Below the pieces are notes generated by a model. The model was not told the DNA's origin. It made no database searches and was given only the letters and a program-made list of their open reading frames with translations. Source: Terribacillus sp. FSL K6-0262 (GTDB taxonomy: Bacteria > Bacillota > Bacilli > Bacillales > Amphibacillaceae). Taken from it: a stretch of DNA of 64,000 nucleotides. The stretch lies in the NCBI RefSeq assembly GCF_037977385.1, contig NZ_CP150277.1, positions 2,395,001-2,459,000 of the forward strand. Direction: 5' to 3'. Made by a program: the position numbers and the translations under genes. This document shows positions 41,599 to 49,673 of the stretch, piece after piece. Position 1 is the first letter of the stretch. Each line of letters begins with the position of its first letter.

Positions 41599-42942
41599 AT
41601 GAAGAAAATTGCAATTGTTGGCACAGGATATGTAGGCTTAGTGACTGGAGTGGCACTATCGGATATCGGACATGATGTAACATGCGTGGATATCGATGAA
41701 GCGAAAGTCGCCAAAATGAACCAAGGCTTATCTCCAATTTATGAGCCGGGTCTGGCAGAATTGATGACCAAAAATATCGAAAAGGGCAATCTTCATTTCA
41801 CGACTGACCACAGCGTCGCTTTTAAGGATGCGGATGCCATCTATATAGCAGTAGGTACACCGGAAAGGGCGGACGGTTCTGCCAATCTTGACTTCGTGCA
41901 GCAGGTGGCAAAAGACATCGCTGCCAATGTGTCGGATAAAGGAGCCGTTGTCGTTACGAAAAGTACGGTGCCGGTCGGTACGAATAAGCTTGTGAAGCAT
42001 TGGATTACCGAAGCGCTTGATCGCGATGTGCAAATCGAGGTTGTATCCAATCCGGAATTCCTTCGGGAGGGCTCGGCTGTCTACGATACATACTATGGCG
42101 ACCGGATCGTGATCGGAGCGGAAAGCCCGGCTGCAGCGGATTTGATCGAAGAAATCAATAAGCCGTTTGGCGTTCCTGTATTCCGTACGGATATCGAGAG
42201 TGCCGAAATGATCAAATATGCATCCAATGCCTTCCTGGCAGCGAAAATCAGCTTCATCAATGAAATCGGTACGATTTGCGGCAAGCTAGGGGCCAATATC
42301 GAGGATGTTGCCAAGGGAATGGGCATGGACAAACGGATCGGCGACAAATTCCTGAATGCCGGCATCGGCTATGGCGGTTCCTGCTTCCCGAAAGATACGA
42401 AGGCTCTTGTTCAGATCGCCGGTGACGTGAATCATAAATTCGATTTGCTGGAATCCGTCATCAATGTAAATAACCAGCAGCAGCAAATTCCGGTTGATAT
42501 CGCCCAAATGGTCGTACGCGGCGGACTGGAAGGCAAGAAAGTCGCCATGCTCGGCCTGGCGTTCAAGCCAAACACCGATGATATGCGCGAATCAGCCAGC
42601 ATCGTCTTGGCACGGAAATTGACGGAGCTTGGTGCGAACATCTCCGCATTCGACCCGATCGCGATGGAAAATGCGAAGCGTCTGCTTCCGGAGACTGTGC
42701 ATTATGCAGCCAGCACGGAGGAAGCATTAAAGGATGCCGATGTCGCGATCATCGTGACAGAGTGGGATGAATTCAAAGACTTGCCATTGACTGTCTTTGA
42801 AAAGCAAATGAAGCAGCCGATCGTCATCGATGGCCGCAACTGCTATCCGTTAAGCTATGTGGAAACAGCGAATATCGATTATCACAGCATTGGACGACCT
42901 TCTGTCATCCGTGCGAAGAAATCAAATCAGCCAGCAAATTAA
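41599..42942 (+). CDS. ugd: UDP-glucose 6-dehydrogenase
   Basis: This 447-residue enzyme has the NAD motif GTGYVGL (8-14), the substrate segment FLREGSA (154-160), the catalytic region GIGYGGSCFPKDT with nucleophile Cys262, and the C-terminal GLAFKPNTDDMRESAS. It oxidises UDP-glucose twice to UDP-glucuronate (TuaD/Ugd). The product feeds the CapI-like epimerase of the polysaccharide operon 14 kb upstream and may also serve a teichuronic-type polymer. GC content is like the chromosome, not like the AT-rich cassette. AGAAGGGATCG precedes the ATG. Confidence 0.93.
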   Translation: MKKIAIVGTGYVGLVTGVALSDIGHDVTCVDIDEAKVAKMNQGLSPIYEPGLAELMTKNIEKGNLHFTTDHSVAFKDADAIYIAVGTPERADGSANLDFVQQVAKDIAANVSDKGAVVVTKSTVPVGTNKLVKHWITEALDRDVQIEVVSNPEFLREGSAVYDTYYGDRIVIGAESPAAADLIEEINKPFGVPVFRTDIESAEMIKYASNAFLAAKISFINEIGTICGKLGANIEDVAKGMGMDKRIGDKFLNAGIGYGGSCFPKDTKALVQIAGDVNHKFDLLESVINVNNQQQQIPVDIAQMVVRGGLEGKKVAMLGLAFKPNTDDMRESASIVLARKLTELGANISAFDPIAMENAKRLLPETVHYAASTEEALKDADVAIIVTEWDEFKDLPLTVFEKQMKQPIVIDGRNCYPLSYVETANIDYHSIGRPSVIRAKKSNQPAN

Positions 42943-43016: not shown

Positions 43017-43097
43017 TCAAGGGTGCAGGAAGTATCTGCCGACGATCATGAATAGATTAAACATAATGAAAAGACATAAAGCGCTGATCATGATCAT
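43017..43097 (-). CDS. possible 26-residue hydrophobic peptide
   Basis: A short frame encodes MIMISALCLFIMFNLFMIVG followed by RYFLHP, essentially one membrane helix. It starts 15 bases after the stop of the 43-residue gene on the same strand. No clear ribosome site (GAGACG is weak), so it may not be translated. Confidence 0.25.
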   Translation of the reverse strand: MIMISALCLFIMFNLFMIVGRYFLHP

Positions 43098-43112
43098 GTC
43101 AAATATACGTCT

Positions 43113-43244
43113 CTAGTGTGTACTCGGTTTATGGTCGGCGCTCTCCTCATCCTTGTTATATGTGAGCAATTCTTCTTCTATCTCTTCATTCAGTTTTTTT
43201 AAAGCTTCCGCTTCTTCGTTTTTATTACGCTCCTGTTCCGGCAT
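43113..43244 (-). CDS. small acidic coiled-coil protein, 43 residues
   Basis: A short gene encodes MPEQERNKNEEAEALKKLNE then EIEEELLTYNKDEESADHKP and STH, a highly charged helical peptide. It begins five bases after the stop of the Mur-ligase-like gene, whose last codons supply AAAAGGGTGA as ribosome site, so translation is probably coupled. Function unknown. Confidence 0.55.
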   Translation of the reverse strand: MPEQERNKNEEAEALKKLNEEIEEELLTYNKDEESADHKPSTH

Positions 43245-43249
43245 TGCGT

Positions 43250-45433
43250 TCACCCTTTTAAGCCAGTCTTGATCAATGATTTCTTTTCGGCCTGCTCATA
43301 TAGTTCCAGAATATTCTCCACTATCTGCTGGGAAGATACTGCCCCGATGATACAGAACATGAATCCGTTCAGGAAGGCGAGGCAGCTCTTTCTTTCTGAA
43401 CCAAAGATGATGCCTCTCACATCAGCTGAAGCGGGGTTCATTATTGTTGGCAATTGCTGCTCCATGCCTTTCTTTCGCATCGAGGAACCGACTAAAAATA
43501 GGTCGTTTACATCATAGGATTGCTGCTCTTTGACACGATACCGGCCTGTGATATTCAAAGATGCTGCATCTGATAGGCGGAAAGACTGAGCCAATTTCAA
43601 AATTTGTTCCATGGCAGCCTTTCGACTATTGAAATATCTGTAAGCCAGTTCAAAAATCACACTTGGATGCTGCGTCATATATAGTTCCTCCAACAGCTCT
43701 TCGTAAAGGAAAGGCTCTCCTTTCCGGAATGGCTTGCCATGGATGCTGCTGCCATTGTTGGTAGGCCAGTCACTCAGGGTTAGTTCCCCTTTTTTCAATC
43801 CTTTCTCCAGGAGTGAATACAAGAGGAGCAAGGGACCCAAACCGTCAATTGTCTGGCTCTGTGTGTTTCCTTTTTCGTAAACATTTTTATCATCCTCATC
43901 GTAAAGCCTCGCAGCGAATGAACAATCGAGCAATTCTGCCAATTCGGATGGCTCATGACTGATGGCTTGTCTGCTGGATTGTTTTAGTTGTTCCGGAAGA
44001 TAATGACTCGTTAAGCGAAAGTCACTTCCCGATACAGAACCTTTAAGCAAAATGAGGGAGTCATCAGAACAATATAACGGGATTCTTCTTGCTAGATCGT
44101 GTGCGTTATTAAACCAGCCGCCTACCTTGGAAGAAGGAATTTGCTTGATCACCTGTCTCATATATTTGCCATGCCCAAACACATAGTCAAATCCTGCATC
44201 CAAAATTTTTGGGAGGAGCTTATCGTGCAGCTGCTGACTGTTTTCACCCAAGTCTGCAACCTGCCCCAAGACCAATATCTTATTGCCCTTGTAAAACTTT
44301 TGTCTGGTACGAAAAGTGTCCAAGGCGTTCTCCATTGCTGGTATGGAAGCATTATGGGAATCATCGAGAATATCGACGGATCTTTGATCGGCGGTAGTGA
44401 GTGTTTTTAATTCCATGATTCGGTCCAGTGATTTGAAATGCAATAATTTCGGAATGAAGTGCTGCAGATCATAACCATTTTCACCCAAGTATAATAATAC
44501 GGCCAGGGTGTTCTCGATGGTGCCTTTTCCGGCCAATTTCATCTGGAATTCGTACTCATCCCCCCGATAGCAGACAGTGGCGGATGTGACATATTTATCA
44601 CTGGCGATATGCTTGAGATAAAGGTCTGCTTCGCTGCTTGTCATGCTGTATGTCCTGATTCGATCCGTTCTCTGCTTCGCTTTATCATAAAGAATATCAA
44701 ATTCCTTGGCAGCGATATCCTGGTTGATGATTGCCAAGCCATCTTTTTTCAAGCCTTCAAAGATCCTCGCTTTGAACCGTGCTATGTTCGCTGTCGAGTG
44801 AAGGGTGGATAAATGCGCCTCCCCTATGGCAGTTACGATACAAGCGTCAGGCTCGATGTTCAAGGCTTGATTCCCTCTATTATTCAAAGCATTCAAGCTT
44901 ATTTCCAATATCGCAAAATCGGGATTCGTGCATAATTTCGCACCATATAACGGAACGCCGGCTTGGGTATTATGATTGCCCCTGGTGGCTACAAGGGTAT
45001 GTTCCTCTTTCAGCAAATGCTCGAATAAAAGCCGGGTGGTGCTTTTGCCGACGGATCCAGTAATCCCGATTACGGGATTCGTCATTTTCTTTCGGGAAGC
45101 TTTGGCTAACTGGGAAATAGCCCGGTAGCTGTCCTTGACGATCAATTGAGGGATCGAGTCCTTCAATGCTGGAATGGCTTTTTCCGTGATGATTAAACTG
45201 CATTTCTCAGAATGGCCCAATATTCTTTTGTTTCCATCCACCCATTGTGTTTGTTTGTTTTTGTGGGCAGCTTCCCATCTTTTTTTGGAAATGGAGATAA
45301 AGCAGTTCCCTTTTACGGGCTGAAAATGTCTTGGTTCGATTTCAAAGTTAGTAATCAAGCAATCCTTGCTGCTGTCATCATTCCAATAATATCCATCCAA
45401 TATTTCCTGTATCTCACGTAAACTGTATCCCAT
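43250..45433 (-). CDS. MurF-like ligase fused to a degenerate carboxypeptidase-type domain
   Basis: This 727-residue protein has two parts. The first (about 1-455) has the MurF layout: LITNFEIEPRHFQPVKGNCFI as UDP-sugar-peptide domain, GITGSVGKSTT (123-133) as P-loop, GNHNTQAGVP, AIGEAHLSTLHS, and DDSHNASIPAMENALDTF. Mur ligases join an amino acid or dipeptide to a carboxylate using ATP. The second part (about 465-727) follows the order of S11 D,D-carboxypeptidases (AARLYDEDDKNVYEKGN, LLLLYSLLEKGLKKGEL, GSSIHGKPFRKGEPFLYEELLEELYM, LSDAASLNITGR) but the SxxK and SxN motifs are absent. Probably a non-housekeeping ligase with a peptide-sensing pseudo-enzyme domain. ATG at 45433 follows AAAGGA. 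Confidence 0.75.
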   Translation of the reverse strand: MGYSLREIQEILDGYYWNDDSSKDCLITNFEIEPRHFQPVKGNCFISISKKRWEAAHKNKQTQWVDGNKRILGHSEKCSLIITEKAIPALKDSIPQLIVKDSYRAISQLAKASRKKMTNPVIGITGSVGKSTTRLLFEHLLKEEHTLVATRGNHNTQAGVPLYGAKLCTNPDFAILEISLNALNNRGNQALNIEPDACIVTAIGEAHLSTLHSTANIARFKARIFEGLKKDGLAIINQDIAAKEFDILYDKAKQRTDRIRTYSMTSSEADLYLKHIASDKYVTSATVCYRGDEYEFQMKLAGKGTIENTLAVLLYLGENGYDLQHFIPKLLHFKSLDRIMELKTLTTADQRSVDILDDSHNASIPAMENALDTFRTRQKFYKGNKILVLGQVADLGENSQQLHDKLLPKILDAGFDYVFGHGKYMRQVIKQIPSSKVGGWFNNAHDLARRIPLYCSDDSLILLKGSVSGSDFRLTSHYLPEQLKQSSRQAISHEPSELAELLDCSFAARLYDEDDKNVYEKGNTQSQTIDGLGPLLLLYSLLEKGLKKGELTLSDWPTNNGSSIHGKPFRKGEPFLYEELLEELYMTQHPSVIFELAYRYFNSRKAAMEQILKLAQSFRLSDAASLNITGRYRVKEQQSYDVNDLFLVGSSMRKKGMEQQLPTIMNPASADVRGIIFGSERKSCLAFLNGFMFCIIGAVSSQQIVENILELYEQAEKKSLIKTGLKG

Positions 45434-45450: not shown

Positions 45451-45924
45451 TCAGCGAACTTTTGAGGGAATACCCTCTGTGCCTCCTGCTATTCCTAATC
45501 TTACATAAAAAGTCTTTTGATGTAATGGATTTCCCTGTATAAAAATGGCATACGCTGTTAATTCATTCGTGCAATAGCTGAGCCAATGATCATGATTCTT
45601 CCAGTAATCTTTCTCGATAAAGTGATCAAATGCTTTTTCCACAGCATCGATCCATTTCTGCTGCTTATCCAGCCGGTACAGTCTCATCAGGGCAAATGCT
45701 GCTTCTCCATCGTAGTAAATGATACGGAATCTCTCTTTCACTTGAAGGGATGGATAGTGAAGCACATGCATGAATTCCCCATTTTCCAGCTGCAAATTCA
45801 AAATCCCTTGCGCAAGCTTTTGGGCATGGGGTAGATAGGAAAAGTCATCAAATACTTCCGCTAAACCAGAGCGGAGATATTTTGAATTCGGATTGAAGAA
45901 TGTAAGCGATAAGCTGGATTTCAT
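45451..45924 (-). pseudogene. inverted N-terminal fragment of a disrupted gene
   Basis: This minus-strand frame encodes a convincing protein segment from about 45864 to 45547 (AEVFDDFSYLPHAQKLAQGI, IIYYDGEAAFALMRLYRLDK, HDHWLSYCTNELTAYA). It then runs into unrelated residues. The segment looks like alpha-helical repeat protein (toroid-type, as in AGE-family epimerases and related glycan enzymes). It ends precisely where the plus-strand frame at 45866 takes up what reads as the continuation. If the stretch 45547-45865 is turned round in place, the two form one open protein. No good ribosome site precedes this frame. Confidence 0.6.
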
Positions 45925-46255
45925 CTATCATCGGAATACCACCTTCCCTACATTTTTAGAGCTGACCCTGGCAACAAGCAAAATGATCGATCGCCTGAAG
46001 GAAACAGGACACAGCGATCTGTTGGACAGCTTCGATGAGGAAAAATTGGAAAATACGATTCATAAAAGAGCGGAATATCAGCGGAACGGTCACTTTTATC
46101 CGGAATTGGCCATGTACTGCAAGAACCCTGGCCGCATACTGGGCAGCTTCTTCATCAGACACCATTCTTTCCGCGCCCGTATAGATGACATCGAGCATTA
46201 TTTGTCAGGCTACTGCGCCTACTATCAGCGATATGCAGGGGCAAAGCAGTCATGA
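45866..46255 (+). pseudogene. C-terminal fragment of the same disrupted gene
   Basis: From 45866 the plus strand reads PERRYFEFGLKNVSDKLDFI, then YHRNTTFPTFLELTLATSKM and, near the end, GSFFIRHHSFRARIDDIEHY. This is the compact C-terminal half of a helical protein. It lacks its N-terminal portion and has no credible start or ribosome site; a TTG at 45893 lies in the middle of conserved sequence. The sortase gene follows 44 bases after its stop in the same direction. The protein family is not identified with confidence. Confidence 0.6.
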
Positions 46256-46299: not shown

Positions 46300-46875
46300 G
46301 TGAAGATAATTGGAAATGGTCTTATCCTGGCAAGTGTCATATTGCTAGCGGTCTTCGGTTATCAATATTTTACGCAAAAGCAAGAACAAAACCATTCCTT
46401 CATTGAAGCGGAAGAAAAAATAAATGAAGAAGGGAAGGCCATCGACGAGCCCTCCATCGCAGATTTTAAAGCGGAAGAAAATGAAGCCTTTGCCATTTTG
46501 GAAGTCCCTAAATTAAAAAAATCCTTACCTATCATAGAAGGAACGGATCCAGATGATTTGAATAAAGGGGTCGGACATCTGACCGATTCCGTATATCCTG
46601 GACAAAAGGAACAAATTGTTTTGTCGGGGCATCGTGATACTGTTTTCCGGAGCTTCGGCGAGTTGGAGCTGGGAGATCGATTTATCGTGAAGATGCCTTA
46701 TGGTACCTACACCTATGAAATCAAAAGCACCGACATCGTACCCGAGGATGATACAACAGTGATTCGCAAAATGGGGGAGGAAGTATTGGTAGTCACTACT
46801 TGCTATCCATTTCACTACGTGGGCAGCGCACCGGAAAGGTTCATCTTTTACGCTTATCCTGTCGCCGAATCATGA
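46300..46875 (+). CDS. class D sortase
   Basis: This 191-residue transpeptidase has an N-terminal membrane anchor (about 4-22), and the sortase core with catalytic His111 in LSGHRDT, Cys168 in VVTTCYPF and Arg180 in SAPERFIFYA. Spacing and the TTCYPFHYVGSAPERF segment fit class D (YhcS/SrtD-like). It joins LPxTG-type proteins to peptidoglycan. GGGAGGTAATATC precedes the GTG. No protein with an LPxTG sorting signal was found in the window, so substrates must be elsewhere. Confidence 0.88.
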   Translation: MKIIGNGLILASVILLAVFGYQYFTQKQEQNHSFIEAEEKINEEGKAIDEPSIADFKAEENEAFAILEVPKLKKSLPIIEGTDPDDLNKGVGHLTDSVYPGQKEQIVLSGHRDTVFRSFGELELGDRFIVKMPYGTYTYEIKSTDIVPEDDTTVIRKMGEEVLVVTTCYPFHYVGSAPERFIFYAYPVAES

Positions 46876-47008: not shown

Positions 47009-47135
47009 TGTGTGGAAATGAATCTATTATACTATTAAAAATTGTAAATGCAGTTACAAAAGTGCTAGATTTCACCACAAAATTCTGCGAGTTTTGTTAT
47101 AATTGAAACAACAAAGCTGGAAAAGGTTGATAGTG

Positions 47136-49673
47136 ATGCAGGAACAACAAGCTAGTCAGAATGAAGTGACAAAATCGGCTGTAACTGTCGGTCAAATGAG
47201 AATAGAACGGATTAAGCCCGGCAGTGTCTGGACGAGGATCGAGACATGTAAGCTGACGGCGGTGACGGCTCCCTCCGGCTATGGCAAGACGACCATGCTG
47301 CAGGAGTGGGCAGCACGGACGCATTTGGACGTGGGCTGGGTCAGCTTGGAGGAAGAAGATATCCAGCGAGTCCCTTTCTGGAAGAAGCTGATCCTGCATA
47401 TGCCAGGTTTGCCGGAACAGGATCGGAAAAATTTATTGGATATCATACAGTCTGCTTCCTATTCGCCGACTCATTTCATTGCAACATGGTGTGCTTGCTT
47501 GCGTAATCATCAAGTCACCGGTGCATTGATCATCGATGATTTTCATTTGATGACAAATTCCAACGAATTATATGAAATGACAACATTATTGGAAGAGATG
47601 CCGGATACATTCCACATCATCGTTTCGGGGCAGTTCTTTCCCGGCCTGTCTTTAAAACGCCTATCGCGGCAGCGTCAGGTACTGCAAATAACAAAGTGCG
47701 ATCTTATCTTTACAGAAGAAGAGATCGCATCGTACATCAGGAATCATCTGCAAAAGGAGCCGACCGAAGCGGCAGTCCGGGATATCATGCAGCAGACGCA
47801 GGGCTGGGCTGCCGGTATCCAGCTGATCCACATGTACGAGCAGTTCCAGGAGGATTATTCCGAGCTGATGTTTTCGAATGTCATGGTCGCAAGGCAGCTG
47901 ATACAGGAAATTGTCTATAGTCTGCATGAAAATGAGCGGAATTACTTGCTGTCCACCTCCATCTTGAATGTGATGCATGTTCGCTTATGCGATTATATTG
48001 CCGGTACAAGGCGCGGCCGCGTGGTGATGAGAAGATTAAGGGATCAAGGCTTGCTGAATGAACTGCAGGATGAGCCGGGCTGGTTCACCTATAACAAGCA
48101 TCTCCGTACATATTTGAAAGAAATGCTCGATATGCAGAATATCGATGTCAAGGAATTGTATAAACGGGCCAGTATCTGGCATGAAAATGAGCAGATGCTG
48201 CTTACGGCCATTCAATATGCTTGGAAGGCTGGTGATCACACACGTGTCAGACAGCTCCTGATCAAAGCAGCTCCCCGCCTTCTCCAGGAAGGGCGCATCG
48301 ATCAGCTGCAGGAATGGATCAATAAGCTGCCGCGCAAATATATTTACCAGATGGAACTTGGTATCATCTATGGCTGGGTGGAGTGCCTCCGTTATCAGCC
48401 GAAGGTGGCCCAGCGGCATGCCCATATGATAGAGGAGCAGCTGCTTCGCCGCGAATTGCAGTTCAGTGAAGAGGAAGAGAAACGGCATTTTGCTGATTTG
48501 TATACATTGAAAAGCTTCATTTCCCTATTGGAGGATGATGTGAAAAGTACGATGGATTATGCCAGCAAGGCACTGGTATACAGTAAGGATTCCAGCAGAT
48601 ACTTTTCACATTCCTTCGATTATAATCGGCATGACGCCACCATCCTTCATTCCCCGCTTGGAGGAGGCGGTGATTTGCGGGCGGTCCAGCGTGTCTATGA
48701 AAGTTTGGCGCACACGATTTCAGGCGAATCCGTGTTCAGCGGCTATTATCATCTGAGTCTGGCCGAGCTTGCCTATGAATGGGGAATGTCGGCCAAAGCG
48801 AAAAGTCACTTGGGAAAAGCGTTGTCCATTGCGGATTTATTCGGATTGCCAGGTCTGCTCGTCCCTGCATACATATTGAAATCCCGTCATGAATTGGAGC
48901 AGCAAGGTGATGCACAATCGGCCAAGGTGACGCTGAACAGGCTGAAGGACATGCTGACAAGGAGCAATGCTTCGGCAGATTGGTTCAAGAAAGCAGAAGC
49001 GGCAAGGATTCATATAGCGATCGATCAAGGTGATACGAAAAGGATACATAATTGGCTGACGCTGTTTTTCATGCAGGAGCCTCCGATTGAACAAAAAACC
49101 TTGTTTGAATACATGACCCTCATATGGGCTTATACAGCACTCGGTGAAGTCGAAGCAACACAGAGATATATCAAGAAGCTGCTGCCGCTTGTCAAATTCA
49201 GCAATCGGATCAGTGCAGGGATCGAATTGCATATCATCCAAGCGATACTGCTGTATCCAGCTGATAAGCAGCAAGCCCTCCTTTCCTTGAAAGAAGCACT
49301 GCGTCTCAGCGCTGATCATAAATATCTGCGCACCTTCTGGCGGGCCGGCGAGACGGTGCGCGATATGCTGCATGAACTGCTGTCATCAGGCAGTGTGGCG
49401 AAAAGGCAGCAGAAGTATGTGGAACAGATCCTGTCGTATTGGTCCGAGGAAACCGATGATCAAAAGCTGCAAAGCAGGCTGACAACCAGGGAATTGCAGC
49501 TTGTCTATCACTTGCAGCTTGGCAAACGGAACAATGAGATAGCCCAGGAGCTTGATTTATCACTCGGTACCGTCAAGGTCTATTTCCACCGGATATATGA
49601 AAAGCTTGGTGTGAAAAATCGCAAGCAAGCGAAGGAAATTGCCGCTGGTCTTGATTTCTCCGCTATTTTGTAA
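47136..49673 (+). CDS. MalT-type LuxR family transcriptional regulator
   Basis: This 845-residue STAND-class ATPase regulator has Walker A TAPSGYGKTTM (about 43-53), Walker B ALIIDDFHLM, a long TPR-like helical middle, and a C-terminal LuxR helix-turn-helix (LTTRELQLVYHLQLGKRNNEIAQELDLSLGTVKVYFHRIYEKL, about 780-822). Such regulators bind an inducer and ATP, oligomerise and activate promoters; the inducer and target are unknown. ATG at 47136 follows AAAAGGTTG. A longer frame starts with a TTG overlapping the likely -10 TATAAT (47098-47103). It has no adjacent transporter or enzyme genes that would reveal its role. Confidence 0.85.
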   Translation: MQEQQASQNEVTKSAVTVGQMRIERIKPGSVWTRIETCKLTAVTAPSGYGKTTMLQEWAARTHLDVGWVSLEEEDIQRVPFWKKLILHMPGLPEQDRKNLLDIIQSASYSPTHFIATWCACLRNHQVTGALIIDDFHLMTNSNELYEMTTLLEEMPDTFHIIVSGQFFPGLSLKRLSRQRQVLQITKCDLIFTEEEIASYIRNHLQKEPTEAAVRDIMQQTQGWAAGIQLIHMYEQFQEDYSELMFSNVMVARQLIQEIVYSLHENERNYLLSTSILNVMHVRLCDYIAGTRRGRVVMRRLRDQGLLNELQDEPGWFTYNKHLRTYLKEMLDMQNIDVKELYKRASIWHENEQMLLTAIQYAWKAGDHTRVRQLLIKAAPRLLQEGRIDQLQEWINKLPRKYIYQMELGIIYGWVECLRYQPKVAQRHAHMIEEQLLRRELQFSEEEEKRHFADLYTLKSFISLLEDDVKSTMDYASKALVYSKDSSRYFSHSFDYNRHDATILHSPLGGGGDLRAVQRVYESLAHTISGESVFSGYYHLSLAELAYEWGMSAKAKSHLGKALSIADLFGLPGLLVPAYILKSRHELEQQGDAQSAKVTLNRLKDMLTRSNASADWFKKAEAARIHIAIDQGDTKRIHNWLTLFFMQEPPIEQKTLFEYMTLIWAYTALGEVEATQRYIKKLLPLVKFSNRISAGIELHIIQAILLYPADKQQALLSLKEALRLSADHKYLRTFWRAGETVRDMLHELLSSGSVAKRQQKYVEQILSYWSEETDDQKLQSRLTTRELQLVYHLQLGKRNNEIAQELDLSLGTVKVYFHRIYEKLGVKNRKQAKEIAAGLDFSAIL

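Follow-up and report, generated by a model that had tools for sequence, protein, structure and literature searches.

The window analyzed here is a 64,000-nucleotide stretch of Terribacillus sp. FSL K6-0262 (contig NZ_CP150277.1, positions 2,395,001 to 2,459,000). On its reverse strand, at 43250-45433, we identified a gene for a 727-aa protein that joins a MurF-type Mur ligase to a C-terminal domain resembling S11 D,D-carboxypeptidases. Judged from its sequence, the protein is a MurF-type ligase additional to the housekeeping one and carries a putatively dead S11-like domain, and most relatives of the same architecture are encoded beside adhesins with dipeptide-repeat stalks. The gene starts with an ATG at 45433, preceded by a plausible ribosome-binding site; the reading frame stays open over its 727 codons and no ATP-site residue is lost. 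The features of the protein, with their support, are as follows:

43250..45433, reverse strand: MurF-type Mur ligase with S11-like domain predicted to be dead, 727 aa (full-length relatives)
44492..45064, reverse strand: Mur ligase central (ATP-binding) domain, residues ~123-313 (Pfam PF08245, comparison with 30 Mur open reading frames)
44036..44386, reverse strand: Mur ligase C-terminal domain, residues ~349-465 (Pfam PF02875)
43253..44035, reverse strand: S11 (DacA-like) domain without catalytic residues (profile and HMM-HMM comparison, motif check)

A second MurF-type ligase with a carboxypeptidase-like domain

Pfam recognizes Mur_ligase_M (6e-34) and Mur_ligase_C (1e-9) in the protein, and the same scan found no ATP-grasp domain. 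Compared with 30 Mur open reading frames (ORFs), which were chosen automatically and whose L001 entry is the adjoining MurE, the central domain keeps the P-loop, Glu, His, and Lys. The nearest solved family is MurF (1gg4, E-value 8e-47 in a family profile search), a resemblance that would also suit a spare copy of the housekeeping MurF, fused to a carboxypeptidase-like regulator. However, the protein scores 223.5-224.9 bits against the NCBIfam murF model TIGR01143, below the curated cut-off of 288.6, and the N-terminal signature of MurF is gone. These two features rule out the identity of housekeeping MurF and, with the linkage of the relatives to adhesins, make a spare copy highly improbable. 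The initial annotation had called for a search for a separate housekeeping murF, and one is present in the source genome (G000:C1:293658-294902, 425 bits against TIGR01143), as is one ddl above the family cut-off. Against cyanophycin synthetase (TIGR02068) the window ligase scores 24.4 bits, with a cut-off of 850.

An N-terminal DSR triplet has a role in binding of the UDP substrate by MurF. The triplet occurs in 0 of 13 adhesin-linked MurF-like members, the window's included. Among ATP-site residues, the His is kept in 12 of the 13 and all others in every member. The His of the DGH motif, invariant in the comparison ORFs, is replaced by Asn in 10 of 13.

Alone, the C-terminal ~262 residues matched no Pfam family at a meaningful E-value, and matched PBP3 of Streptococcus pneumoniae weakly (E-value 0.079). 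A five-row family profile of the domain reaches S. pneumoniae PBP3 (1xp4) at 1.9e-7 and Staphylococcus aureus PBP4 at 0.011-0.02. At E-values of at most 1e-5, the profile also has matches in 273 of the 397 genomes searched from the order; 29 loci other than the window's were fetched from these matches, and all 29 encode a DacA-type ORF, 330 aa or longer, in which both an SxxK-type motif and KTG are present. When the hidden Markov model (HMM) of the S11-like family was compared with that of the 29 DacA-type loci, the probability was 97.2 (P 4.6e-11). One relative, L080, passes the Pfam Peptidase_S11 (PF00768) cut-off at 1.4e-7, the sole direct Pfam match to S11. A C-terminal domain unrelated to S11 enzymes would have contradicted the initial annotation; by sequence, the domain is S11-related (PBP3 at 1.9e-7, HMM-HMM P 4.6e-11).

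In the HMM-HMM alignment, SxxK (SMTK) stands opposite GLGP, SxN (SGN) opposite QHP, and KTG falls in a gap immediately before FGS. An active carboxypeptidase is ruled out by these missing motifs. The SxxK position reads (I/V)(E/D)Gx(G/A/S)P in 21 of 21 Mur+S11-like proteins, namely the window protein and 20 ORFs (L123 duplicates L079 and L175 duplicates L130), so the loss is a family trait, indicating a conserved dead domain and no recent lesion. L080, outside this set, lacks SxxK too and has an SPN triplet near the SxN position. The letters KTG are present elsewhere in some members, including the last residues of the window protein. Overall, the Mur domains and an S11 relationship without SxxK, SxN, and KTG bear out the earlier description of a MurF-like ligase fused to a catalytically dead carboxypeptidase-like domain.

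Two further identities were considered and rejected. A phage gene is not indicated: 27 phage records matched, none covers 80% of the protein, and among the 20 listed the matches end by residue 484. Nor is the gene an ordinary feature of the genus, being held by 0 of 9 congeners.

Most relatives of the ligase lie beside dipeptide-stalk adhesins

A first scan of genome contigs with the single window protein found no relative. The single S11-like sequence, searched against the 397 genomes of the order, returned a single strong match, that of the window itself, and six weak matches (E-values 2e-4 to 9e-4). Plasmid records contain four full-length relatives in staphylococci (34-35% identity), and a genome scan identified nine loci with the same architecture, in Cerasibacillus, Bacillus sp., B. 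norwichensis, Siminovitchia terrae, and five staphylococci. In eight of these nine, a gene for a protein that we call the toroid adjoins the ligase gene or lies within ~1.6 kb of it. In each of these eight loci there is also an Asp-X run of 10 or more repeats, the long stalk of an (Asp-Ala/Asp-Ser)n adhesin. The initial annotation had also suggested a test of gene-neighborhood conservation, and toroid plus Asp-X stalk in eight of nine loci is the outcome.

The order in L124-L126 (of which L125 and L126 are close relatives) is stalk adhesin (cut by the contig end), toroid, D-Ala-D-Ala ligase, MurF-like ligase, small coil/membrane gene, and class D sortase. An extra ddl thus accompanies the MurF-like gene in these three loci; a fourth, L074, has the extra ddl without a MurF-like gene. 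It had been guessed that the enzyme deals with D-Ala-D-Ala, and this gains from the extra D-Ala-D-Ala ligase gene in the operon of three close relatives. UDP-MurNAc peptides, with which ligase assays had been suggested, are unsupported as the target given the loss of DSR in all 13 members and the linkage to adhesin stalks.

The extra Ddl in L124-L126 and L074, the sortases that adjoin many Gram-positive loci, and an S11-type protein beside the cassette on a staphylococcal plasmid would also be expected if the MurF-like ligase, with the extra Ddl, made an altered lipid II stem peptide as a special sortase anchor for the adhesin, the precursor being remodelled as in van-type systems. We consider this unlikely, because MurF partners, separate or fused to the toroid, also occur in Gram-negative bacteria with Bap-type adhesins. 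Those loci are annotated with type I secretion genes and no sortase, although the plasmid annotation is incomplete. A ligase acting on the lipid II precursor also sits poorly with the absence of the DSR triplet in 13 of 13 members.

Two staphylococcal loci have further features. On a plasmid, a gene annotated as a 'serine hydrolase' (L067:3917-4687, reverse strand) adjoins the cassette. In its product, a match to the C-terminal half of S11 precedes one to a beta-lactamase-type N-terminal half, an order that resembles a circular permutation. At L171:9832-13453, gtfD has a MurF-like gene directly beside it in the same orientation, and the adhesin of this locus has a stalk of mixed Ser/Ala composition.

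The toroid is the GtfC family

When 15 toroid sequences from the window's class were aligned with one from Agrobacterium, 36 columns were invariant. Pfam found no family above cut-off in the members from L048, L070, L123, and L198, and weak matches to GH88/GH127 for L070; a PDB profile search returned alpha-1,6-mannanase alone, at an E-value of 0.01. As the matches to these families are weak, the label 'toroid', for an (alpha/alpha)-barrel, is a guess. No glycosyltransferase family was recognized in the toroid members scanned.

All six gtfC/gtfD primers of PMC5230774 that were tested match L171 without mismatch: GtfC-F/R sit in the toroid ORF, and GtfD-F/R in the adjoining glycosyltransferase ORF. 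The toroid is the GtfC family of staphylococci, and genes in these records annotated as 'poly(glycerol-phosphate) alpha-glucosyltransferase' should be corrected to GtfC-family toroid. In its account of these genes, PMC5230774 reports that full glycosylation of Pls takes both GtfC and GtfD (with GtfD of strain COL by itself, glycosylation was weak), that the sugar is located on the Pls repeat region, and that CAZy did not predict GtfC to be a glycosyltransferase.

In a sample of 398 genomes from the window's class, 30 contained the toroid, and an Asp-X run of at least 10 repeats occurs in 23 of 27 further toroid neighborhoods from that sample. Such a run occurs in 49 of 65 toroid or ligase loci (1.10 Mb; two loci are counted twice, L079 as L123 and L130 as L175) versus 0 of 78 control loci (0.39 Mb). 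By eye, some of the 16 loci without it carry other Asp-rich repeats. In one genome of the window's family, a terpene-synthase-family ORF (L072:7502-8476) follows the toroid and a sortase.

Partner enzymes and stalk composition

A variety of enzymes accompany the toroid. A GT4-like glycosyltransferase is beside it or fused to it in Klebsiella (L207) and Staphylococcus epidermidis (L202, L203), and the Klebsiella fusion goes with a Ser stalk. MurF-like partners are fused to the toroid in Agrobacterium and Sulfitobacter, where the fusions adjoin Bap-type adhesins with Asp-Ala runs, and are encoded by a separate gene in Nitratireductor. YheC/D-type or other ATP-grasp partners occur in L074, L174, L177, L181, L182, L185, and Agrobacterium Tul002, in the last of which the toroid is fused with three ATP-grasp regions. 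The MurF-like, ATP-grasp, and Ddl families are all ATP-dependent carboxylate-amine ligases.

We tabulated partners in 69 loci (L123 omitted). Setting aside the toroid-free L131, 15 loci without a countable stalk, and L126 and L130 left 51 loci, in which the Ala share of the stalk was taken as Ala in Ala plus Ser. A ligase (MurF-like, ATP-grasp, or Ddl) lies within 6.5 kb in 28 of the 51, and the stalk contains Ala in all 28 (Ala share at least 0.23). A glycosyltransferase is the only partner in six, with a Ser-based stalk in each (Ala share at most 0.08). By Fisher tests on the 51 loci, ligases go with Ala-containing stalks (p 0.0008) and glycosyltransferases with Ser-containing stalks (Ala share under 0.9; p 0.024). 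When toroids were clustered at 70% identity, using 53 loci with L126 and L130 restored, the association of glycosyltransferase with Ser-majority stalk gave p 0.008. The observed change of partner with stalk is suggestive, a pattern and no proof.

A PGA_cap domain is fused behind the Mur and S11 domains in L080, a PGA_cap protein adjoins the toroid in Acinetobacter (L197), and RimK-like ATP-grasp regions occur in L204. The two PGA_cap loci hint at polymeric additions in some lineages. With the RimK-like regions, they could mean that the enzyme builds a short homopolymer (e.g., gamma-glutamyl) on the stalk, like the poly-gamma-glutamate of capsules, with PGA_cap handling the polymer. This is doubtful for the family at large, since PGA_cap is near the toroid in just 2 of 68 toroid loci and was absent from toroid neighborhoods in the window's closest relatives (L079, L124-L126). 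In the Acinetobacter locus (L197:9618-11400), a short ORF with a weak S11 match (Pfam E-value 0.049) and the PGA_cap protein follow the toroid in place of a ligase.

Remnants of a cassette in the window

Around the window ligase, we identified genes and gene fragments as follows:

41599..42942, forward strand: UDP-glucose 6-dehydrogenase-like gene, left border of a variable slot
43017..43112, reverse strand: membrane-segment part of a small gene, severed by an in-frame stop
43113..43244, reverse strand: small coiled-coil gene, ATG at 43244, 43 codons to the in-frame stop (counterparts in L123-L126)
45484..45849, reverse strand: toroid/GtfC-family remnant, middle part (~residues 344-440 of the Listeria toroid, L070; tblastn, 54-66% identity)
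45866..46252, forward strand: toroid/GtfC-family remnant, C-terminal part (~residues 442-570 of L070; tblastn, 53-63% identity)
46300..46875, forward strand: class D sortase (LPxTATN type; NF058671, 226 bits, cut-off 140)
47103..49673, forward strand: large ORF, right border of the variable slot

The right-hand border gene presumably encodes a MalT/LuxR-type regulator. Between it and the dehydrogenase-like gene, eight of nine congeners have three different ORFs, two of which look by eye like a sugar kinase and a GH1 enzyme, and the ninth is almost empty. Ligase, toroid, and sortase queries found no match in any of the nine. Given congener slots without these genes, the window cassette was most simply acquired.

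The cassette also appears to have decayed, as the toroid is in two pieces on opposed strands, with its first 315-345 residues absent, and the small gene has an in-frame stop. In the Bacillaceae cassettes (L123-L126), counterparts of the small gene, 3' of the ligase, run on into the membrane segment; the 'small coupled gene' that had been placed downstream is therefore a version cut short. The sortase noted as a neighbor is present, belongs to class D, has 60-64% identity to the sortases of L124-L126, and is transcribed divergently from the ligase gene. The initial annotation overlooked that the neighboring genes are wrecked, so that the window ligase is probably an orphan.

In this genome, the ligase gene may survive as a relic without a current substrate, the intact ORF reflecting recent loss of its neighbors. 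We consider this probable, and it does not conflict with the function proposed below for the family. The broken toroid, the interrupted small gene, and the absence of the gene from nine congeners are consistent with it, as are the sorting-signal proteins of the genome. We inspected all of those above the LPxTATN (4) or LPXTG (6, overlapping) cut-offs and one weaker, and not one contains as many as 4 Asp-X repeats in a row. What speaks for a working enzyme is the gene itself, with 727 open codons and an intact ATP site.

The source genome has a second, likewise damaged toroid locus (G000:C1:2037565-2038863; L082, 9554-12044), whose toroid is without ~145 N-terminal residues. The adhesin beside it has 397 aa, versus at least 2815 aa in the congener G008.

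Predicted function of the cassette

We propose, with a probability of roughly 55%, that the family ligase is a carboxylate-amine ligase of a cassette that modifies (Asp-X)n adhesin stalks, that the toroid handles the stalk, and that the window holds an acquired and decaying copy. The GtfC-family toroid would handle the stalk in the cytoplasm, prior to export. A swappable partner would supply the chemistry: a GT4-like glycosyltransferase for Ser stalks, a MurF-like or ATP-grasp ligase for Asp-Ala stalks. With ATP, the MurF-like enzyme may phosphorylate the Asp beta-carboxylate, onto which it would then couple a short peptide or a single amino acid. The proposed role of the dead S11 domain is to bind the amine substrate or the product, plausibly a D-Ala-D-Ala-like dipeptide.

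The best reading of the ligase is thus amidation of stalk Asp side chains, with predicted substrates. In a pure Asp-Ala repeat, the Asp carboxylate is the sole reactive side-chain group and hence the candidate acceptor. The retained ATP site, the lost DSR, and the change of His to Asn in DGH are in keeping with a new acceptor. As donor, D-Ala-D-Ala or a similar dipeptide is suggested by the relationship to S11 and by the extra Ddl of four loci. The initial annotation was largely right in suggesting a peptide-modifying pathway that is not housekeeping; in the relatives, the pathway looks peptide- or amino-acid-modifying and linked to surface proteins.

Several observations weigh against stalk modification by the ligase. 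All 30 comparison ORFs share an Arg and a Tyr that just 2 of the 13 MurF-like members retain; this argues against unchanged use of D-Ala-D-Ala in Bacilli, where the donor may differ. The S. americanisciuri locus L131 has the ligase and neither toroid nor stalk, and the alphaproteobacterial MurF partners (L069, L198) have no S11 domain. In 17 of the 51 loci with countable stalks no partner lies within 6.5 kb (15 Ala-containing stalks, 2 Ser), so the toroid does not require a linked ligase. Four ligase-bearing toroid loci (L067, L085, L170, L199) have no countable stalk and fall outside the table. After the clustering of toroids (31 clusters), the association of ligase with Ala is not significant (p 0.10); thresholds for partner and stalk were set after the data had been seen, and the p values ignore phylogeny. 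Finally, the window has no Asp-X stalk adhesin and the sorting-signal proteins inspected across the genome have no Asp-X run, although no genome-wide stalk search was made.

Known systems offer partial parallels. In Pls-GtfC-GtfD, as described for these genes in PMC5230774, an Asp-rich dipeptide-stalk adhesin is likewise followed by a GtfC-family toroid with a second modifying enzyme adjoining, and L171 has both gtfC and gtfD (exact primer matches) plus a MurF-like gene. The partner here differs in being an ATP-dependent carboxylate-amine ligase, and the stalks are Asp-Ala or mixed. A parallel in chemistry is cyanophycin synthetase CphA1, whose Mur-like domain, in the description of that domain in PMC9262961, couples Arg to the side chains of poly-Asp. 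Attachment of amino acids to the Asp residues of a polymer would be common to both, but CphA1 also makes the backbone, by an ATP-grasp domain, whereas here we propose that the backbone is a ribosomally made stalk. MurF itself (UDP-MurNAc-tripeptide:D-Ala-D-Ala ligase) is the nearest relative of the ligase half and shares the ATP-binding residues. The window family differs from it in scoring below the cut-off, in the lost DSR and the mostly altered invariant His, in the extra C-terminal domain, and in the adhesin neighbors of the relatives.

Two adhesins with pure Asp-Ala stalks have been reported: BapA of Paracoccus denitrificans, with 891 Asp-Ala repeats (PMC5588039), and Lmo1799 of Listeria, with 226 Ala-Asp repeats (PMC8687577). 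BapA runs above its calculated mass, and modification was not excluded by its authors (PMC5588039). Unlike in the cassettes considered here, no modifying enzyme is described for either in the sections of these papers that deal with the adhesins (PMC5588039, PMC8687577). At the Listeria stalk gene (L070), a toroid adjoins and no ligase was found within 6.5 kb. In a literature search, the titles and abstract openings of the best matches contained no link of a Mur ligase to a dipeptide-stalk adhesin.

A bolder version, which we offer as speculation and think improbable, is that bacteria of at least two phyla turn the Asp of (Asp-Ala)n stalks into side chains bearing D-Ala-D-Ala or a similar dipeptide, via a repurposed Ddl-MurF pair. 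The stalk would become a ribosomally made mimic of peptidoglycan stem peptides, open to cross-linking by D,D-transpeptidases with the wall or with neighboring stalks, and the dead S11 domain would read the D-Ala-D-Ala end.

The stalk-modification cassette is more interesting than the single gene that led to it. It occurs in Gram-positive and Gram-negative bacteria, with chemistry that appears to be interchangeable. The repeats of pure Asp-Ala stalks, such as those of Lmo1799 and BapA, offer neither Ser nor Thr for glycosylation, and a cassette with a second enzyme matched to the stalk would, if real, explain this design. It would also represent a type of protein modification absent from the literature found in our paper searches.

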